Shown here in pieces: positions 4,018 through 11,126 of a DNA stretch of 64,000 nucleotides. The stretch's first letter is position 1; every line of letters begins with the position of its first letter. This DNA comes from Chloroflexota bacterium. GTDB taxonomy: Bacteria; Chloroflexota; JAJPGV01. The position numbers and the translations under genes are program-made. The notes under the pieces were generated by a model. The model searched no databases. It saw nothing but the letters and a program-made list of their open reading frames with translations, and was not told the DNA's origin. Where the stretch lies: the NCBI GenBank assembly GCA_021325635.1, contig JAJPGV010000056.1:131037-195036 (forward strand). The letters run 5' to 3'.

Positions 4018-4593
4018 CTAGGTGGTCCGCGATGGTCCCCAGAACGGATAGTCGATGCCTGCCAGCCGGTTGATGACGAAGCCCTGCATGGTCAGTACCA
4101 GCACCGCCAGCATGAGCACCCCGATCTGCCACAGATGGGGCATCAGGCCGAGGGACACGATGAGCGTCGTCGCGCCAGCCGGCGGGTGAGGGACGCGCAG
4201 GATGACCATCAGGCCGGCGGTGAGGGCCAGCGACAGGCCGGCGGCGCCCACCCGCGCCCAGTCCACGCCACCGGTCAGCGCCGGTGGCGCGGCCGTCAGC
4301 CCGAACAGCACCAGGCTCAGCCAACCGGCGAGGGCGCCGATGAGGTGCCCACAGAGCGTGTTTCGGGGACACGCTGGCGGCGCAGTCGGGGTGTAGAACA
4401 GCAAAAACGCGGTTGGTCCGAGCGAGGGGAAGATGAACGGCGCCCGTGTGACCAGCGCCGCGATGGCCATGAGCGCGATGGAGATCAGGCCGTTGATGAA
4501 GCTGAAGGCAGCCAGGACCGTGGTGGAGCTGTGATGCTTGCTCAGCTCCGGCACGCGCAGCCGGTGGGCCAAGCCGAGCAGGACCTCGGACAT
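4018..4593 (-). CDS. HPP-family integral membrane protein, probable nitrite transporter
   Basis: 191 residues with about five transmembrane segments and the family signature RVPHPPAGATTLIV, preceded by FPSLGPTAFLLFYTPTAPPA. Cyanobacterial and plastid HPP proteins have been shown to move nitrite, which fits its place at the end of an operon for a nitrate-reductase-like enzyme. Unlike many bacterial HPP proteins it lacks a C-terminal CBS pair. ATG 4593 is used; the frame stays open further upstream to the previous stop with no standard start codon. Confidence 0.8.
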   Translation of the reverse strand: MSEVLLGLAHRLRVPELSKHHSSTTVLAAFSFINGLISIALMAIAALVTRAPFIFPSLGPTAFLLFYTPTAPPACPRNTLCGHLIGALAGWLSLVLFGLTAAPPALTGGVDWARVGAAGLSLALTAGLMVILRVPHPPAGATTLIVSLGLMPHLWQIGVLMLAVLVLTMQGFVINRLAGIDYPFWGPSRTT

Positions 4594-4679: not shown

Positions 4680-4967
4680 TCAGAGCAGCTCCCGCAGCGG
4701 GACCTCGGACTCGCCGTGCCGCAGACCGGGCCGGCGGCGGAGCAGGCGCAGGATGCCCAGCCCGCCGGCGAAGATGGCGCCCGAGATGAGGGCCAGCGGC
4801 CAGATGTCAAGACCCCGACCCGACTGGAAGAGTTCGAGTGCGACGGTCAGCAGCCACAGCTGCAGGGCCATGAGCAGCAGCCCAATCACCAGGGCGGCGG
4901 TTGCAAGGGCGTCCTGGCCGGGCGGCGTCAACGGGATCGGGTGCTGGTTGCCGTCGGAGGAGATCAT
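4680..4967 (-). CDS. Small two-helix membrane subunit
   Basis: 95 residues with two hydrophobic segments (about residues 21-45 and 55-75) and a basic C-terminal tail LRRRPGLRHG. The ATG overlaps the Rieske stop codon (TGATG), indicating translational coupling. No family is recognised. Its position suggests a membrane-anchor subunit of the Rieske/molybdoenzyme complex. Confidence 0.65.
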   Translation of the reverse strand: MISSDGNQHPIPLTPPGQDALATAALVIGLLLMALQLWLLTVALELFQSGRGLDIWPLALISGAIFAGGLGILRLLRRRPGLRHGESEVPLRELL

Positions 4968-5485
4968 CACAGCTCCCAGCCGGTGGCGTAGATCATGCCG
5001 TCCTGCTGCCGCAGCGTGATGCGGGTTAGACGACGCTGCGGCGGGCCGGCGACGGGCTCGCCGGTCTCGGGGTTGAACACCCCTTCGTGGCAGGGGCAGA
5101 ACACCCGCTTCTGGTCCGGCTGGTAAAACACGCCGCAGGACAGATGCGTGCAGGTCTGGTTGTACGCCGCGAACTGCCCGTTCGGGTGATGCAGCAGCAT
5201 GGCCTCGTCGCCGAGCGTCGATGTCGGGTAGTGAAAGTACACCGCCTGGCCCTCGGGCACGTCGGCCGCGCGGGCGATCTCGACGCCCGGTCCGCTGGAG
5301 CTGCGGGGGATGAAGCCCAACCCGGCCAGGACCGCCGTCGCGGCGAACAGCGCACCGGATGAGTACACGGCGAAGTTCAGCAGCTCGCGCCGCGAGATGG
5401 CTTCGTCGGCATTCCACTGGTAGGGGAACTCCCGCTGCCAGTGCAAGCGGGGCCATGCTCTTCGAGTTGTTTCTGGATCAGTCAA
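4967..5485 (-). CDS. Rieske [2Fe-2S] protein
   Basis: 172 residues: a polar N-terminus, RRELLNF before one hydrophobic anchor (about residues 38-58), then a Rieske fold. The two cluster motifs are CTHLSCG and CPCHEG, giving the Cys-x-His and Cys-x-x-His ligands. It is shorter than but similar to cytochrome bc-type QcrA proteins. Its stop overlaps the next gene and its start overlaps the ferredoxin-subunit stop by 8 nt. It probably carries electrons between quinol and the molybdoenzyme or its ferredoxin subunit; direction is unknown. Confidence 0.88.
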   Translation of the reverse strand: MTDPETTRRAWPRLHWQREFPYQWNADEAISRRELLNFAVYSSGALFAATAVLAGLGFIPRSSSGPGVEIARAADVPEGQAVYFHYPTSTLGDEAMLLHHPNGQFAAYNQTCTHLSCGVFYQPDQKRVFCPCHEGVFNPETGEPVAGPPQRRLTRITLRQQDGMIYATGWEL

Positions 5486-6101
5486 GCACCCAGGCCTCCT
5501 CTCGTACCTCTTCGCGACTCAGATCCTGGCGAGCCTGCCGCAGCAGTGCCGAGACGTCCAGGCGGTCCGCCGGTTCCGGCAGCACGTGGAACACGCGTGT
5601 TCGCACTTCCTGGTCGCCGAACACGGTGCGCCGCACGGGATGGCCGCGTCGCTGATTGATGAACTCCTCGTAGTCGCCGTACCAGATGGCGCCGGTGGGG
5701 CAGGCCTGGGCGCACCACGGTTTCAGCCCCTGGACGGTGCGGTCGTAGCACAGGTTGCACTTCTTCATGAGCCGCGCTTCGAGATCGATCTTGGGCACGC
5801 CGAAGGGGCAGGCGTAGACGCAGTTGCGGCAGGCGATGCAGCGGGATGGCTCCGCCTGCTGCACCACGCCCTCGGGCGTAATCATGATGGCCAGCACCGG
5901 GCACACCTGGGCGCACGGTGCGACCGGGTCCTCGCAGTGCATACACAGCGTCGGTTGCGTCGCCACGGAGTGGCGGCGGTCGACGAAATCGACCATGATC
6001 ATGCTCTCGCCCTTATGCGTGTCGCACTCGCGGCAGGCAGCTTCGCAAGCGCGGCAGCCGATACAGCGCGAGGGGTCGACGAACATCGTCTTGATGGCCA
6101 T
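5478..6101 (-). CDS. Four-cluster 4Fe-4S electron-transfer subunit (NrfC/FdhB/DmsB type)
   Basis: 207 residues with four Cys clusters: CIGCRACEAAC, CMHCEDPVAPCAQVC, CIACRNCVYAC and CNLCYDRT followed by CAQAC. This is the typical beta subunit that docks to a molybdopterin catalytic subunit and passes electrons to a membrane anchor. ATG 6101 overlaps the molybdoenzyme stop (ATGA). No Tat or Sec signal is present, so the complex is probably cytoplasmic-facing. Confidence 0.9.
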   Translation of the reverse strand: MAIKTMFVDPSRCIGCRACEAACRECDTHKGESMIMVDFVDRRHSVATQPTLCMHCEDPVAPCAQVCPVLAIMITPEGVVQQAEPSRCIACRNCVYACPFGVPKIDLEARLMKKCNLCYDRTVQGLKPWCAQACPTGAIWYGDYEEFINQRRGHPVRRTVFGDQEVRTRVFHVLPEPADRLDVSALLRQARQDLSREEVREEAWVLD

Positions 6102-8398
6102 CAGTGCGCCTTGCCGGGAGAAATCGGAGCCTTGGTCTCCCCGACTTCGTACGGGAACAGCCTGGGCGTGTCCTCGGCGGTGAAATTGACCTTGGCCCGA
6201 CCAGCGTGCTCCGGCGGCGGCGCGTCCAGACGCTCGACCGTGGCGGCACAGGCCTTGTACTCCGGAATCTTGACGGTCGGATCCACGGCCGGGTTGGTGA
6301 GCTGGTTGACCGCCTGGCGGTGGCCGTAATGGAAGGGAATGAACAGCGTGTCCGGCCGGATGGTGGGCACGACCAGCGCCGGCAGCTCCATCGATGCCCG
6401 CGCCGTGCGTACCCGCACCCTCTCCCCGTCGGAGATCCCCAACCGCCCGGCCGCCTGGGGATGGATCTCCACCCACGGCTCCGGGGCCTGACTGTTGAGA
6501 AAGCCAATGCGCCGCGTCTGGTTGCCGCTCAGGTAGTGGTACACGACCCGGCCGCTGGTCAGCCGGAAGGGAAAGTCCGGTGAGGGCTCTTCCGCGGGAG
6601 GCAGATATTCAAGAGGAAAGAAGCGCGCCCGTCCGTCGGGATGGCCGAAGCGCTCCGTGTGCAATCGCGGCGTCCCGGGATGGTCCTCGGACGGGCAGGG
6701 CCAGAACACGCCCTCCTGGGCATCGATCTTTTCCCAGCTGATGCCGTAGTAGTCAGCCGTGCCGCCTTTCGAGGCCAGACGCATCTCGTCGAAGATGGCC
6801 CGCACCGAGGTGAAGGGGAAGAGCGGGCCTTTGCCCAGGCGACGGGCCAGATCGCACACGATCTCCCAGTCTGTGCGGGCTTCGCCCGGCGGCTCTACGG
6901 CGCGGTTGATCTTAATAACCCGGCCCTCCAGGTTGGTGGTCGTGCCTTCATCTTCACACCACACCGTGCCCGGCAGCACCACGTCCGCCAGCTCGGCCGT
7001 CTCGGACTGGAAGAAGTCGATGACTACCAGCGGCTCGATGTTGCTCAATGCCCGCTGGACGGTCGCGTTCTCTGGCAGTGAGACCATCAGGTTGGAGCAC
7101 ACCACCAGGCAGCTCTTGATCTCGCCTTTTGCCATGAGGTGTACCTGCTCCAGGGCCGAGGCGCCCTCCCACGGCAGATCCTCCGCTGAAATCCCCCACA
7201 CGCCGGCGATGTACTCGCGGTCCTGCGGCACGTCGATGTGCCGGTAGCCGGGTAGCTGACTGGCCTTCTGGCCAACCTCGCGTCCGCCCTGGCCGTTGCC
7301 CTGGCCGGTCAGCATCATCGTCCCGCCGCCGGGCTTGCCGACCTGGCCGCGCGCGAGCGCCAGGTTGGTGCAAGCCAGTACGTTGTTGACTCCGTGACTG
7401 CTGTGCTCGATACCGCGAGCGTGCATGATGAGCGACGGGTCCGCCTGGCCGTAGAGGCGCGCGGCGGCCAGGATGCGCTCCGCCGGCACTCCCGAGAGCA
7501 TCTCGGCCACCTCAGGCGTGAACGATTCCGCCGCCTGGCGAGCCGCTTCCCAGCCGCTGGTGCGGGCGCCGACGTAATCCTCATCCACCATGCCCTCGTG
7601 GACGAGGACCCGCAGGATGGCGTTCAGCACGGCCACGTCGGTGCCGGGTTTGACGGGCAGCCAGATGTCAGCCGTGCGCGCTGTCGGCGTCTCGCGGGGG
7701 TCCATGACGATCAGCCGCGCCCCGTTGTCCCGGGCCTCCCACAGCCAGCGGGTGACGATGGGGAAGCACTCGCCGACGTTGGCGCCCGCGATCAGAATGC
7801 ACTTGGCCAGCGGGATGTCGGTCATGGGCAGGGGCGCGCGGTCCACGCCAAAGGCCTTGTCGTAGCCGCCGGCCGCCGAGGACATGCACAGCCGGCCGTT
7901 GTAGTCGACATGCCGTGTGCCCAGTCCGACCCGGGCGAACTTGCCCATGAGGTAGCACTTCTCGTTCGTCATCGACGACCCGCTGTACACCGCGACGGCA
8001 TCGCGCCCGTGTGCCGCCTGGATGTCCTGCCAGCGGCGGGCGACGTAGTCCAGCGCCTCGTCCCAGCTGACACGCTCCAGCGGCGAGCTCTTGCCGTGGC
8101 GGCGCATCATGGGATGGCGCAGCCGGTCGGGGTGATCCACCTGCTGGTAGGCCAGCACGCCTTTCGGGCAGAGGTTGCCGCGGTTATGGGGGTAGTCGCG
8201 CGGCTCGACGCCCACCACCTGCCCGTCACGGACGCGCAGGAACATGCCGCACTGCACGCCGCAGAAAGCGCAATGCGTGGGGACGAACGTCTCCGGGAGG
8301 TGCGCCGCATCCGCCCAGCCCGACGGCGGAGAACCGGCCGACTGGAAGTCGTAGTTGAAGTCGCGGTGCCGTTCGAAGACGTCCTTGTTGACGCTCAT
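6101..8398 (-). CDS. Molybdopterin oxidoreductase, NarB/NasA-type nitrate reductase-like catalytic subunit
   Basis: 765 residues. An N-terminal 4Fe-4S motif, CAFCGVQCGMFLRV with the fourth Cys in NRGNLCPKG, is followed by the bis-MGD-binding domains. DYNGRLCMSSAAGGYDKAFG matches the NarB/NasA/NapA region in which the Cys of RLCM-S ligates molybdenum. The C-terminal dinucleotide-binding domain includes HYLSGNQTRRIGFLNSQAPE. There is no twin-arginine leader. ATG 8398 lies in a TAATG overlap with the cytochrome gene. Nitrate is the likely substrate by motif and by the neighbouring NnrS/HPP genes; formate or another oxyanion remains possible. Confidence 0.85.
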   Translation of the reverse strand: MSVNKDVFERHRDFNYDFQSAGSPPSGWADAAHLPETFVPTHCAFCGVQCGMFLRVRDGQVVGVEPRDYPHNRGNLCPKGVLAYQQVDHPDRLRHPMMRRHGKSSPLERVSWDEALDYVARRWQDIQAAHGRDAVAVYSGSSMTNEKCYLMGKFARVGLGTRHVDYNGRLCMSSAAGGYDKAFGVDRAPLPMTDIPLAKCILIAGANVGECFPIVTRWLWEARDNGARLIVMDPRETPTARTADIWLPVKPGTDVAVLNAILRVLVHEGMVDEDYVGARTSGWEAARQAAESFTPEVAEMLSGVPAERILAAARLYGQADPSLIMHARGIEHSSHGVNNVLACTNLALARGQVGKPGGGTMMLTGQGNGQGGREVGQKASQLPGYRHIDVPQDREYIAGVWGISAEDLPWEGASALEQVHLMAKGEIKSCLVVCSNLMVSLPENATVQRALSNIEPLVVIDFFQSETAELADVVLPGTVWCEDEGTTTNLEGRVIKINRAVEPPGEARTDWEIVCDLARRLGKGPLFPFTSVRAIFDEMRLASKGGTADYYGISWEKIDAQEGVFWPCPSEDHPGTPRLHTERFGHPDGRARFFPLEYLPPAEEPSPDFPFRLTSGRVVYHYLSGNQTRRIGFLNSQAPEPWVEIHPQAAGRLGISDGERVRVRTARASMELPALVVPTIRPDTLFIPFHYGHRQAVNQLTNPAVDPTVKIPEYKACAATVERLDAPPPEHAGRAKVNFTAEDTPRLFPYEVGETKAPISPGKAH

Positions 8399-9501
8399 TA
8401 CAGGAACCGCTTGCCCATCAGCTGGTAGTAGGCCTGGCCGCGCAGCACGCGTTTGCAGGTGGGGCAATACTCCTGCAGCCAGCCCTGGCCATCGCCCAGG
8501 TCGTAGTGCTGACCGAGGTCCGTCAACGTGCCGCGCAGGTCGTCGATGAACTGGCGCGAGGGCAGCTCACGGCCGCAGCGCTTGCACGACTCGCCGTCCG
8601 CGGAGGACTCCTGGTTGACGGTCTGGTACAGGGTCACGCCGATGCTGGCCGGGCGCTCGATGATGTGGAAGAACTTGGCGAACGGCAGCGCCAGCAGCCA
8701 GGCGACCACGACCACCTCGTGGGTGAGCGAGATGAACCAGTAAAAGCGGCCCTGCCACAGGGTAGATGAGGCCGTTAGCGCCAGGCCCGTCACGGCAATG
8801 GCAAACAGCAGCACCAGCGGCATGAGATCGAAGGTGAAGCGCTGGAGCGTCAGCAGCCCCGCGTCCTGGATGCGCCTGCCGAAGGCAAGCACCAGTCCCA
8901 CGATGAGCAGCGCCGCGGTCCAGTCCAGGCCGTGGTAGATGGTGAAGCCAAGCAAACCCTCGACGGCGAAGCGCAGCAGGGGTAGCCCGAAGAACCACAG
9001 CTGGTAGTCGTTGGGCGGGACAAACGTGAACCGAAACCAGCCGAACGTCAGGGGGAAGGTGATGCAGCAGGACAGCACCACGCCCCAGAACAGGCACAGG
9101 TGCATGACCCAGCGCCGGGTGCTGCGCTTGCGGATAAAGGTCTGAGCAAAGATGTCCCGCCACCAGGCGACCGGGATGAGCAGCGTGTAATGCCGGAAGT
9201 TGCGCCACGAAAAGAAGTTGACCCAGCCCGCCTTGAAGTAGCGCCACGTTGGTGGCCGCATGATCCACAGGGTGTAGCGGTAGACGATGGCCGCCGCGGC
9301 GAAGATGGTGCCCACGGCGTAGCCGATGAGCGCCGCGTCGAAGGTGCGGAAGCCGAGCGAGCCCGCCCACATCAGCAGCACTACGATGAGGCCCGCCCCG
9401 ACGCCCGCGGCGGCGGCCGGCAGCCCGTGGCGCGCTACCGAACCCGCTGCTCCGTCCGTCGCTATGAGCGGCGAACTCGCGCTGGGTTGCGAAAGACTCA
9501 C
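8398..9501 (-). CDS. NarI-like membrane cytochrome b subunit with C-terminal CxxC pairs
   Basis: 367 residues with about seven or eight hydrophobic segments. Histidines suited to haem ligation occur in RHYTLLIPVAWWRD, RRWVMHLCLFWG, LTHEVVVVAW and FAKFFHIIERP. The soluble C-terminus carries CKRCG and YCPTCKR, a zinc-ribbon- or cluster-like pair not found in standard NarI. First gene of the leftward operon; GTG 9501 with a GAGGTGGGG site. It probably links the quinone pool to the ferredoxin/Rieske subunits. Confidence 0.75.
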   Translation of the reverse strand: MSLSQPSASSPLIATDGAAGSVARHGLPAAAAGVGAGLIVVLLMWAGSLGFRTFDAALIGYAVGTIFAAAAIVYRYTLWIMRPPTWRYFKAGWVNFFSWRNFRHYTLLIPVAWWRDIFAQTFIRKRSTRRWVMHLCLFWGVVLSCCITFPLTFGWFRFTFVPPNDYQLWFFGLPLLRFAVEGLLGFTIYHGLDWTAALLIVGLVLAFGRRIQDAGLLTLQRFTFDLMPLVLLFAIAVTGLALTASSTLWQGRFYWFISLTHEVVVVAWLLALPFAKFFHIIERPASIGVTLYQTVNQESSADGESCKRCGRELPSRQFIDDLRGTLTDLGQHYDLGDGQGWLQEYCPTCKRVLRGQAYYQLMGKRFL

Positions 9502-9527: not shown

Positions 9528-9543
9528 TGGCACCATGGTGGCA
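9528..9543. promoter_or_regulatory. Near-palindrome between the divergent nitrate-reductase operon and the CMD gene
   Basis: TGGCACCATGGTGGCA is an inverted repeat with one mismatch, lying in the 41-bp divergent intergenic space and touching the CMD start codon. A shared operator is possible; nothing else regulatory is visible in the gap. Confidence 0.3.
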
Positions 9544-10088
9544 TGGCACGGATACGACCATTGACGAAGGATGAAGTCGAGGGGGACGTGCGCACCGCCC
9601 TCGAGCAGTCCGAACGAGCCTTCGGTGAGCCCCTGGTGCCGACCGGCATTCGGGCCTACTCGCCGCCCATTCTGGAGGCGGCCCGCATGCTGGCGGCGGC
9701 GCCGGCCAGGAGCCACACGCTGCCGCCGCTGCTGCGATCGCTGGTCTGCCTCCGCGCCGGCCAGATGGTAGGCTGCCCCTTCTGAATGGACACCAATGCT
9801 GTCGGGAGCAGCAAAGGTGGCGCGTCCAAGGAGAAGATCGCGGCGGTCGCGCATTTTCGTGAGAGCGACCTGTTCAACTCTGAAGAGCGGGCCGCGCTGG
9901 CCCTGGCGGAAGCGATGACTGCCACACCGGCGGTCATCACCGACGAGGTGTTTGCCGAGGCCCGGCGTCATTTCAATGAGAAGCAACTGGTTGAGCTGGC
10001 CGCGACCGTGGCCATGGAGAACGAGCGCGCACGGTTCAACCGGGCCTTCGGCGTCGAGTCGCAGCACTTCTATGAACGCCTGTCATAA
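9543..10088 (+). CDS. CMD/AhpD-like protein, probable selenoprotein with in-frame TGA (CxxU)
   Basis: A single frame of 182 codons is interrupted only by TGA at 9783-9785. The two halves join to a normal carboxymuconolactone-decarboxylase/AhpD-like protein, and the TGA falls exactly where the second redox Cys of the CxxC site belongs: GCPF-U-MDTNAVG (intact relatives read CPxCxD). Downstream, the family features RAALALAEAM and QLVELAATVAMENERARFN are intact, with no decay. A stem-loop with a G-containing apical loop sits 11-28 nt after the TGA. Selenocysteine is the best explanation; a point nonsense mutation or sequencing error is the alternative. The likely role is thiol/selenol-dependent peroxide or NO-related detoxification. 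Confidence 0.75.
9797..9813 (+). promoter_or_regulatory. Candidate bacterial SECIS stem-loop
   Basis: TGCTGT-CGGGA-GCAGCA forms a 6-bp stem, its top pair a U-G wobble, with a five-base loop containing guanines. It begins 11 nt after the TGA codon and its loop starts 17 nt after it. Bacterial SECIS elements lie just downstream of the UGA, have a short upper stem and a G in the apical loop, and tolerate wide sequence variation. It was identified by eye only. Confidence 0.55.
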
Positions 10089-10510
10089 GCGACGGGACGT
10101 CGCTGGGGGTTGATAGCCGACGCGTCCTGACGTTCGTCCGCCGTCTTGACGTCGCGCTCGCTGGTTTGCAGTAGTTCCGCGATGACCACCGCCTGGTTGT
10201 GCTCGCGATCCTTCGCGCCGAACAGGATGGTCACCGCCTCCCGGCTGGCCAGATTGCGCAAATGGGCCAGCCGCTGGCGCTGGCTGGCCGCGGCGAGCTC
10301 GGCACGGTAGCGCTCGCGGAACTGGCTCCACAGTGCCGGATCGTGGCCGAACCACTTGCGCAGCACCGTGCTTGGCCCCAGGTCGGGTAGCCATTCGTCG
10401 ATGTGCGCCATTTCCTTCATCAGCCCACGTGGCCAGACGCGGTCCACCAGCACACGTCGACCGTCCCCCGGCGCCGGCTCATCGTAGACGCGCTTCAACT
10501 GCAAGGACAT
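10070..10510 (-). CDS. DUF488 family protein
   Basis: The N-terminal part LKRVYDEPAPGDGRRVLVDR followed by VWPRGL, and later LRKWFGHDP and ILFGAKDREHNQA, match DUF488 (YeaO-like) proteins of unknown function. ATG 10510 has a GGGGAAC site and is preferred to a longer in-frame start. The C-terminal tail is about 20 residues longer than usual. It overlaps the 3' end of the convergent CMD gene and closes the leftward hemerythrin/cupin gene set. Confidence 0.75.
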   Translation of the reverse strand: MSLQLKRVYDEPAPGDGRRVLVDRVWPRGLMKEMAHIDEWLPDLGPSTVLRKWFGHDPALWSQFRERYRAELAAASQRQRLAHLRNLASREAVTILFGAKDREHNQAVVIAELLQTSERDVKTADERQDASAINPQRRPVAYDRRS

Positions 10511-10625
10511 GTTCAGTTCCCCGTGCGCCGGACTGGCGTAATCCGATACATCGATCCTACGCCCGGCCGCAACCCCTGCAGCGGCACCGTGGCGCATAGT
10601 CTCGGCGCAGAGGCCGAACGCTGGG

Positions 10626-11126
10626 TCATGTGGCCAGGCGGGCACGCGCGATGGCCTCACCTGACGCTTCACCGGGCTCTGCCGCCAACTCGAGATGATC
10701 GACCCACTTCACGCTGCTAAAACACGCAGCGCCGCTCATGACCAGGCGCCACGGGCCACCATGGCTCAGGCTCAGCGGCTGGCCGTTCAGCTCGTCGGCC
10801 AGGATGGCCTGGCCAGCCTCCTCCAGCGATAGCGGAACGGCGTATTCGCCCGCGCTGACGCGGAGCCAGTGCGCCTCGGCGCGCGGTTGAGCGATAGCCA
10901 GCACATCGAGCAGGCGAACGCCGCACCAGGTGAGCCGGGGCACCTGCCAGCCCTCCTCGCAGATAAACGGTTCGGTCAATTCGGCGCGTGGCAAGCCCGC
11001 CAGATCAGCCGGGCTGAAGGCGCTCGCTTGCTCGACCAGTCCGTCTACTACCAAGCGACCCATCTGCACGGCTCGCCGTACGCCTTCCGGGATGGGATGC
11101 TCGGGTAGCCTCGATCGAATCTCCAT
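10626..11126 (-). CDS. Small sulfite-oxidase-fold molybdopterin-binding protein
   Basis: 166 residues matching the oxidoreductase molybdopterin-binding domain: FICEEGWQVPRLTWCGVRL contains the Cys that would ligate molybdenum and the E-G-W signature, followed by a SAGEYAVPLSLEEA segment and GPWRLV. It lacks the dimerisation domain of sulfite oxidase and has no signal peptide. The substrate is unknown. It sits 11 bp after the hemerythrin gene, in the same orientation. Confidence 0.8.
   Translation of the reverse strand: MEIRSRLPEHPIPEGVRRAVQMGRLVVDGLVEQASAFSPADLAGLPRAELTEPFICEEGWQVPRLTWCGVRLLDVLAIAQPRAEAHWLRVSAGEYAVPLSLEEAGQAILADELNGQPLSLSHGGPWRLVMSGAACFSSVKWVDHLELAAEPGEASGEAIARARLAT

Follow-up and report, generated by a model that had tools for sequence, protein, structure and literature searches.

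Does the TGA at positions 9783–9785 of this stretch end a gene, or is it read as selenocysteine (Sec) within a longer one? The window, by which we mean the whole 64,000-nucleotide stretch of Chloroflexota DNA analyzed here, is part of a 4.6-Mb assembly in 63 contigs. On its forward strand lies a CMD/AhpD-like frame (9543–10088) of 181 sense codons, with TGA counted as Sec, followed by the stop codon TAA (10086–10088). The TGA is its sole internal stop, and no frameshift is present between 9543 and 10088. When the TGA is read as Cys, residues 57–124 match the Pfam CMD family (PF02627) with 46 bits, as compared to a gathering score of 23. Members of this family commonly bear the name of a decarboxylase or a peroxidase. 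Aligned to the redox cysteines of CMD homologues, the TGA takes the place of the second Cys of the CxxC motif (GCPF-U-MD), giving a CxxU active site (9774–9785, forward strand) composed of C78 (TGC, 9774–9776), P79, F80, and U81. The initial annotation had described a CMD/AhpD-like frame free of frameshifts and interrupted only by a TGA at the second Cys, and had suggested aligning it with CMD homologues. Each of these points holds, and the homologues show either Cys or TGA at this codon.

The computational evidence consists of the open frame, decoding machinery in the same genome, a covarying hairpin, fixation of the TGA among relatives, continued selection 3′ of it, and the predicted fold. 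On this evidence, the gene is almost certainly a genuine bacterial selenoprotein gene. The fuller account, in which SelB and a bSECIS element decode the UGA to give an AhpD-fold protein with a CxxU redox pair, is also highly probable. Gene callers using table 11 would split such a gene or call it broken, and a conserved redox enzyme could therefore go unnoticed or be wrongly annotated in genomes throughout Chloroflexota and Acidobacteriota.

Decoding machinery and the downstream hairpin

The genes named in the initial annotation as those to look for, selA, selB, selD, and that for tRNA-Sec, are all found in the same genome, where they are grouped in one locus on contig G000:C50. The matches are 545 bits for selA (cut-off 268), 347 bits for selB (cut-off 242), 152 bits for a selD fragment (cut-off 125), and 73.3 bits for tRNA-Sec (cut-off 47), which has the anticodon UCA. 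A tRNA with this anticodon would also be expected if this organism read TGA generally as sense (Trp or Cys), but that reading has a negligible chance: the UCA tRNA is the tRNA-Sec adjoining selA and selB, long table-11 reading frames are normal, and TGA remains a stop, terminating 10 of the 16 window genes checked. In the proposed mechanism, SelA and SelD would produce Sec-tRNA(Sec), which SelB would carry; SelB would then bind the hairpin at 9797–9813, just 3′ of the UGA, and deliver Sec at UGA 9783–9785.

The genome has three other Sec genes, those for SelD and two formate dehydrogenases, which serve as positive controls from the same genome. The selD gene (L186, G000:C50, minus strand) is thus itself a selenoprotein gene, with TGA at the usual active-site position (TNYAHCAGUAAK). 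The formate dehydrogenase genes (L172 on G000:C9 and L173 on G000:C50) have their TGA within ARIUHSS, and one of the two lies near the sel locus. One formate dehydrogenase gene has a hairpin whose loop, GGUCU, begins as far from the TGA as the loop in the CMD/AhpD-like gene does and resembles the one known from E. coli fdhF.

Across the phylum, 78 of the 101 genomes sampled have selB above the cut-off, as do all 13 genomes with a verified active-site TGA (p about 0.03). The corresponding tally for tRNA-Sec carries no information at scores below about 55 bits, since the model also picks up other long-arm tRNAs. Two MAGs with selB yielded no strong tRNA-Sec: G083, which has a Sec-type CMD gene, and G061, whose CMD match contains a TGA somewhere along its length.

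The hairpin that had been placed 11–28 nt past the TGA is real. It occupies 9797–9813 on the forward strand, corresponding to nucleotides 12–28 after the TGA, and consists of a 6-bp stem (TGCTGT/GCAGCA) and a 5-nt apical loop (CGGGA) with G at loop position 2. The spacing from TGA to loop is 17 nt. The bSECIS model specifies a loop of 3–9 nt, a stem of 4–16 bp, a G in the first two loop positions, and a spacing of 16–37 nt (PMC13188914). The hairpin, for which a bacterial SECIS check had been suggested, fits all four of these constraints, and its U-G closing pair and G at loop position 2 are permitted by the model but not ideal. An Rfam scan of the gene region matched neither SECIS nor any other family beyond the level of chance.

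The folding energy of the single sequence is mildly unusual (z about −1.7). This score was treated as weak evidence, and conservation tests were used in its place. In most of 29 aligned Sec sequences, the stem starts about 12–14 nt and the loop about 18–19 nt past the TGA. Across these sequences, 88.2% of cells are paired, five of seven pairs show two-sided changes, and the covariation score is 0.283, as compared to 0.164 in shuffles. On all five measures, 0 of 500 shuffles equaled the hairpin, and sliding the partner strand reduces every pairing measure. Because the hairpin sits in coding DNA, a synonymous recoding control was also run. The mean stem score is 6.2 in 39 Sec rows versus 3.5 in the same rows after recoding, and it is 2.97 in 92 Cys rows; the hairpin is absent from Cys homologues. 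When compared with seven close relatives, the hairpin codons show few synonymous-site changes in most pairs. Conservation of the hairpin across 29 relatives is far beyond chance, and these aligned, covarying bSECIS elements can be used for training predictors.

Relatives and the distribution of Sec and Cys

In a search of 101 genomes of the phylum together with GTDB contigs, the nearest homologues have TGA at exactly the same codon. The 29 top matches of a 400-genome phylum search all carry an in-frame TGA. In a maximum-likelihood tree of 84 rows, the gene falls in a supported clade of 32 Sec and 3 Cys rows, and Sec is close to fixed in this subfamily. The Sec homologues of the clade are mostly from Chloroflexota, plus two Acidobacteriota MAGs and one Burkholderiaceae MAG, and are 34–76% identical to the window protein where measured. 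The whole tree requires a minimum of six gains or losses of Sec. Of the Cys rows nearest by score, one (L046) comes from a genome with tRNA-Sec and another (L048) from a genome without a tRNA-Sec above the cut-off. Relatives were not found in a search of viral contigs, and a plasmid collection gave only distant CMD proteins, with up to about 36% identity among the matches listed.

This distribution bears on two other ways of explaining the TGA. The first is that the sequence was read wrongly here, or that a gene of the Cys type has recently suffered a nonsense mutation, making the frame an artefact or a pseudogene. A one-base change suffices to turn TGC or TGT into TGA, and the assembly is fragmented into many contigs. 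However, the clade contains 31 further homologues with the same TGA, which come from separate genomes, and its recurrence in some thirty independently sequenced genomes serves as resequencing. A pseudogene is further opposed by the conserved hairpin after the TGA and by the frame downstream of it, which is under purifying selection (pN/pS of 0.24–0.39 against seven close relatives). The second is that the ribosome terminates at the TGA and reinitiates at the adjoining ATG (9786–9788; TGAATG), yielding proteins of 80 and 100 residues. The ATG lies directly 3′ of the TGA, and the 100-residue reading frame is open, but many homologues have Leu, Ile, Thr, Ala, Val, Gln, or Gly immediately past the TGA, and this ATG is therefore not conserved. 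Splitting the gene would also sever the CMD fold at the redox pair, and the second half alone matches no Pfam family. An AlphaFold2 model of the read-through protein, built with 28 relatives, has a mean pLDDT of 96.7. Selection past the TGA and this confident read-through fold rule out sequencing error, gene decay, and a split into two proteins, and we regard either explanation as extremely improbable.

Several loci encountered among the relatives deserve mention. A contig of the Burkholderiaceae bacterium AOB1 MAG (L045, minus strand) carries, besides a close relative of the window protein, a second CMD-like frame of very different sequence, in which the TGA falls at CxxU (CTYUGNQR) and is followed 21 nt later by an 8-bp hairpin. 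This genome has two strong tRNA-Sec matches, and mixed binning is therefore possible. A decaying copy of the gene (positions 203–513 of L049; also L017) has lost its 5′ part and, through a deletion of about 19 nt, the TGA codon as well, but retains the SECIS hairpin sequence, in a genome that keeps selB and tRNA-Sec. A neighboring Chloroflexota clade (L019, L034, L035, L037, L038, and L148) consists of CMD selenoproteins with the motif CxYU-x-x-x-H and a hairpin with the loop GGC 21 nt past the TGA. Within this neighborhood, L019 (Sec) and L020 (Cys, without the hairpin) appear to record a recent Sec/Cys switch.

Predicted fold and likely chemistry

The product is predicted to be a 181-residue, all-helical protein of the AhpD fold, with the CPFU redox pair at a helix N-terminus. 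Foldseek gives the debrominase Bmp8 (6ohi) as the best solved match, full-length with TM 0.87; AhpD-like PA0269 (TM 0.72) and Atu0492 are also among the best, and the match to 1gu9 is weak (TM 0.53). The window protein resembles Bmp8 and P. aeruginosa PA0269/AhpD (2ijc, 7xw1; TM about 0.7) in fold and in the position of the CxxC motif, but both have Cys where it has Sec, and identities are about 23–31%.

Compared with M. tuberculosis-type AhpD, the redox pair is present, as CxxU, whereas the Glu and His of the proton relay are absent. The positions of these relay residues of the M. tuberculosis enzyme, equated by spacing from the CxxC motif, are occupied here by Ser66 and Asn85. Most members of the clade likewise have no relay Glu, and Asn, not His, is usual. 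With both relay residues replaced, the standard AhpD mechanism should not be assumed. We considered whether Sec had relieved the need for this relay, but the idea is unsupported, as both residues are likewise missing from L046 and L048, the nearest Cys relatives, and the Sec clade with CxYU-x-x-x-H retains both.

A CxxU pair in an AhpD fold leads us to expect a thiol/selenol redox reaction. The Cys–Sec pair (C78 and U81) would cycle between the selenol/thiol form and a selenenylsulfide. The protein may be a selenol reductase or peroxidase resembling AhpD. Its task would be either to clear peroxides or reactive nitrogen species or to reduce a partner protein, and the cells concerned are probably those that use the neighboring molybdoenzyme. 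A peroxidase of the M. tuberculosis AhpD type would work with AhpC or a lipoyl partner, and AhpC-TSA proteins are present in the genome. A role of the AhpD type, in peroxide or reactive nitrogen chemistry or in thiol redox, has roughly an even chance.

The most serious competitor accepts that the gene encodes a selenoprotein but assigns it a different chemistry, reductive dehalogenation or a decarboxylase-like reaction, as in the CMD-family debrominase Bmp8. Bmp8 is a match in sequence as well as the best full-length match in structure, and the absence of the proposed AhpD relay residues is in keeping with such a role. Identity to Bmp8 is only about 23%, however; genes for halogenated compounds were not noticed beside the gene; and folds of the PA0269 and Atu0492 ‘antioxidant’ type match equally well by E-value. 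We therefore consider this chemistry unlikely, and the modeled closeness to Bmp8 may leave room for other reductive reactions.

Known families and the molybdoenzyme neighborhood

CMD/AhpD-like selenoproteins had been said to be predicted before in bacteria, and indeed CxxU proteins of this kind (CMD/AhpD-like 2, pfam02627) were reported in 2005 (PMC1088965) and 2008 (PMC2398784) and are tabulated in a 2026 review (PMC13188914). Like these, the window protein has a Pfam CMD domain, a CxxU motif with Sec in the second position, and a downstream bSECIS element. The published proteins came from marine metagenomes, whereas this branch is mostly from Chloroflexota, has the motif CPFU-x-D-x-N, and has nearest relatives that adjoin a molybdoenzyme cluster. 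The initial annotation regarded a selenoprotein beside a nitrate-reduction region in such an organism as notable. The selenoprotein stands, but the surprise is smaller than supposed given how common selB is in the phylum and that the CxxU kind is published.

Two curated families come close. The window protein gives a full-length match (1–179 of 179) to NF053654 (GroundWater_YciW, a YciW-related (seleno)protein family of NCBIfam), but with 129 bits, below the curated cut-off of 310. NF053654 is a CxxU family that falls in this tree clade too (L018, ‘CAFUQDIN’, with 296 bits across a partial stretch), and the score below the cut-off therefore indicates a sister subfamily, not a member. An AhpD-type core and similar length are shared with TIGR01926 (peroxidase-related enzyme, YciW/COG2128-like), for which the window protein scores 33 bits, below the cut-off of 81.8; L019, from the neighboring clade with CxYU-x-x-x-H, passes with 99 bits. 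As judged from these sequence comparisons, the gene appears to represent a new branch, or subfamily, of already known CMD/AhpD selenoproteins, adding one in which Sec is nearly fixed to the catalogue.

The selenoprotein gene is flanked by a molybdoenzyme cluster on the minus strand. Its first gene (8398–9501) encodes a membrane protein with weak similarity to QmoC and a 74% identical homologue in L041; it is divergent from the selenoprotein gene, with 41 bp between the listed starts. Next are a molybdopterin oxidoreductase (6101–8467), nearest to the assimilatory nitrate reductase NasC at 804 bits but below the equivalog cut-off of 1100, a 4Fe-4S electron-transfer subunit (5478–6476), a Rieske-type iron–sulfur protein (4967–5485), and an HPP-family membrane protein (4018–4593). 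On the other side, also on the minus strand, lie a convergent DUF488 gene (10070–10672), which has a homologue close to the Sec gene in both L043 and L168, and a gene for a sulfite-oxidase-like Oxidored_molyb domain protein (10626–11126), with homologues adjoining the selenoprotein gene in L041 and L168.

A NasC-like cluster lies within 16 kb of the Sec gene, in differing arrangements, in L041, L150, and L151, which are the nearest relatives of the window gene on the tree. It is absent from most other Sec loci examined. More distant Sec relatives do without the cluster, and the molybdoenzyme link is therefore limited to a lineage. The nitrate-reduction setting given in the initial annotation is thus real as a neighborhood but is common only to the nearest relatives. 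A specific link to nitrate or NO chemistry is accordingly plausible, if less likely than not, and somewhat less likely again is the more specific proposal that this Sec-fixed AhpD-fold subfamily is a selenium-dependent defense or repair enzyme coupled to the NasC/Rieske-type molybdoenzyme. If that proposal were true, nitrate or NO metabolism in these bacteria would depend in part on selenium by way of a protein that is not formate dehydrogenase. The arrangement suggests a testable link between selenium and a nitrate/NO-type gene cluster. Between 10626 and 17411, the window carries Oxidored_molyb, hemerythrin, cupin, DUF2249, COX1-like, FeS_assembly_P, NnrS, a further cupin, and Crp-type genes, a run that is suggestive of NO or nitrogen-oxide handling.
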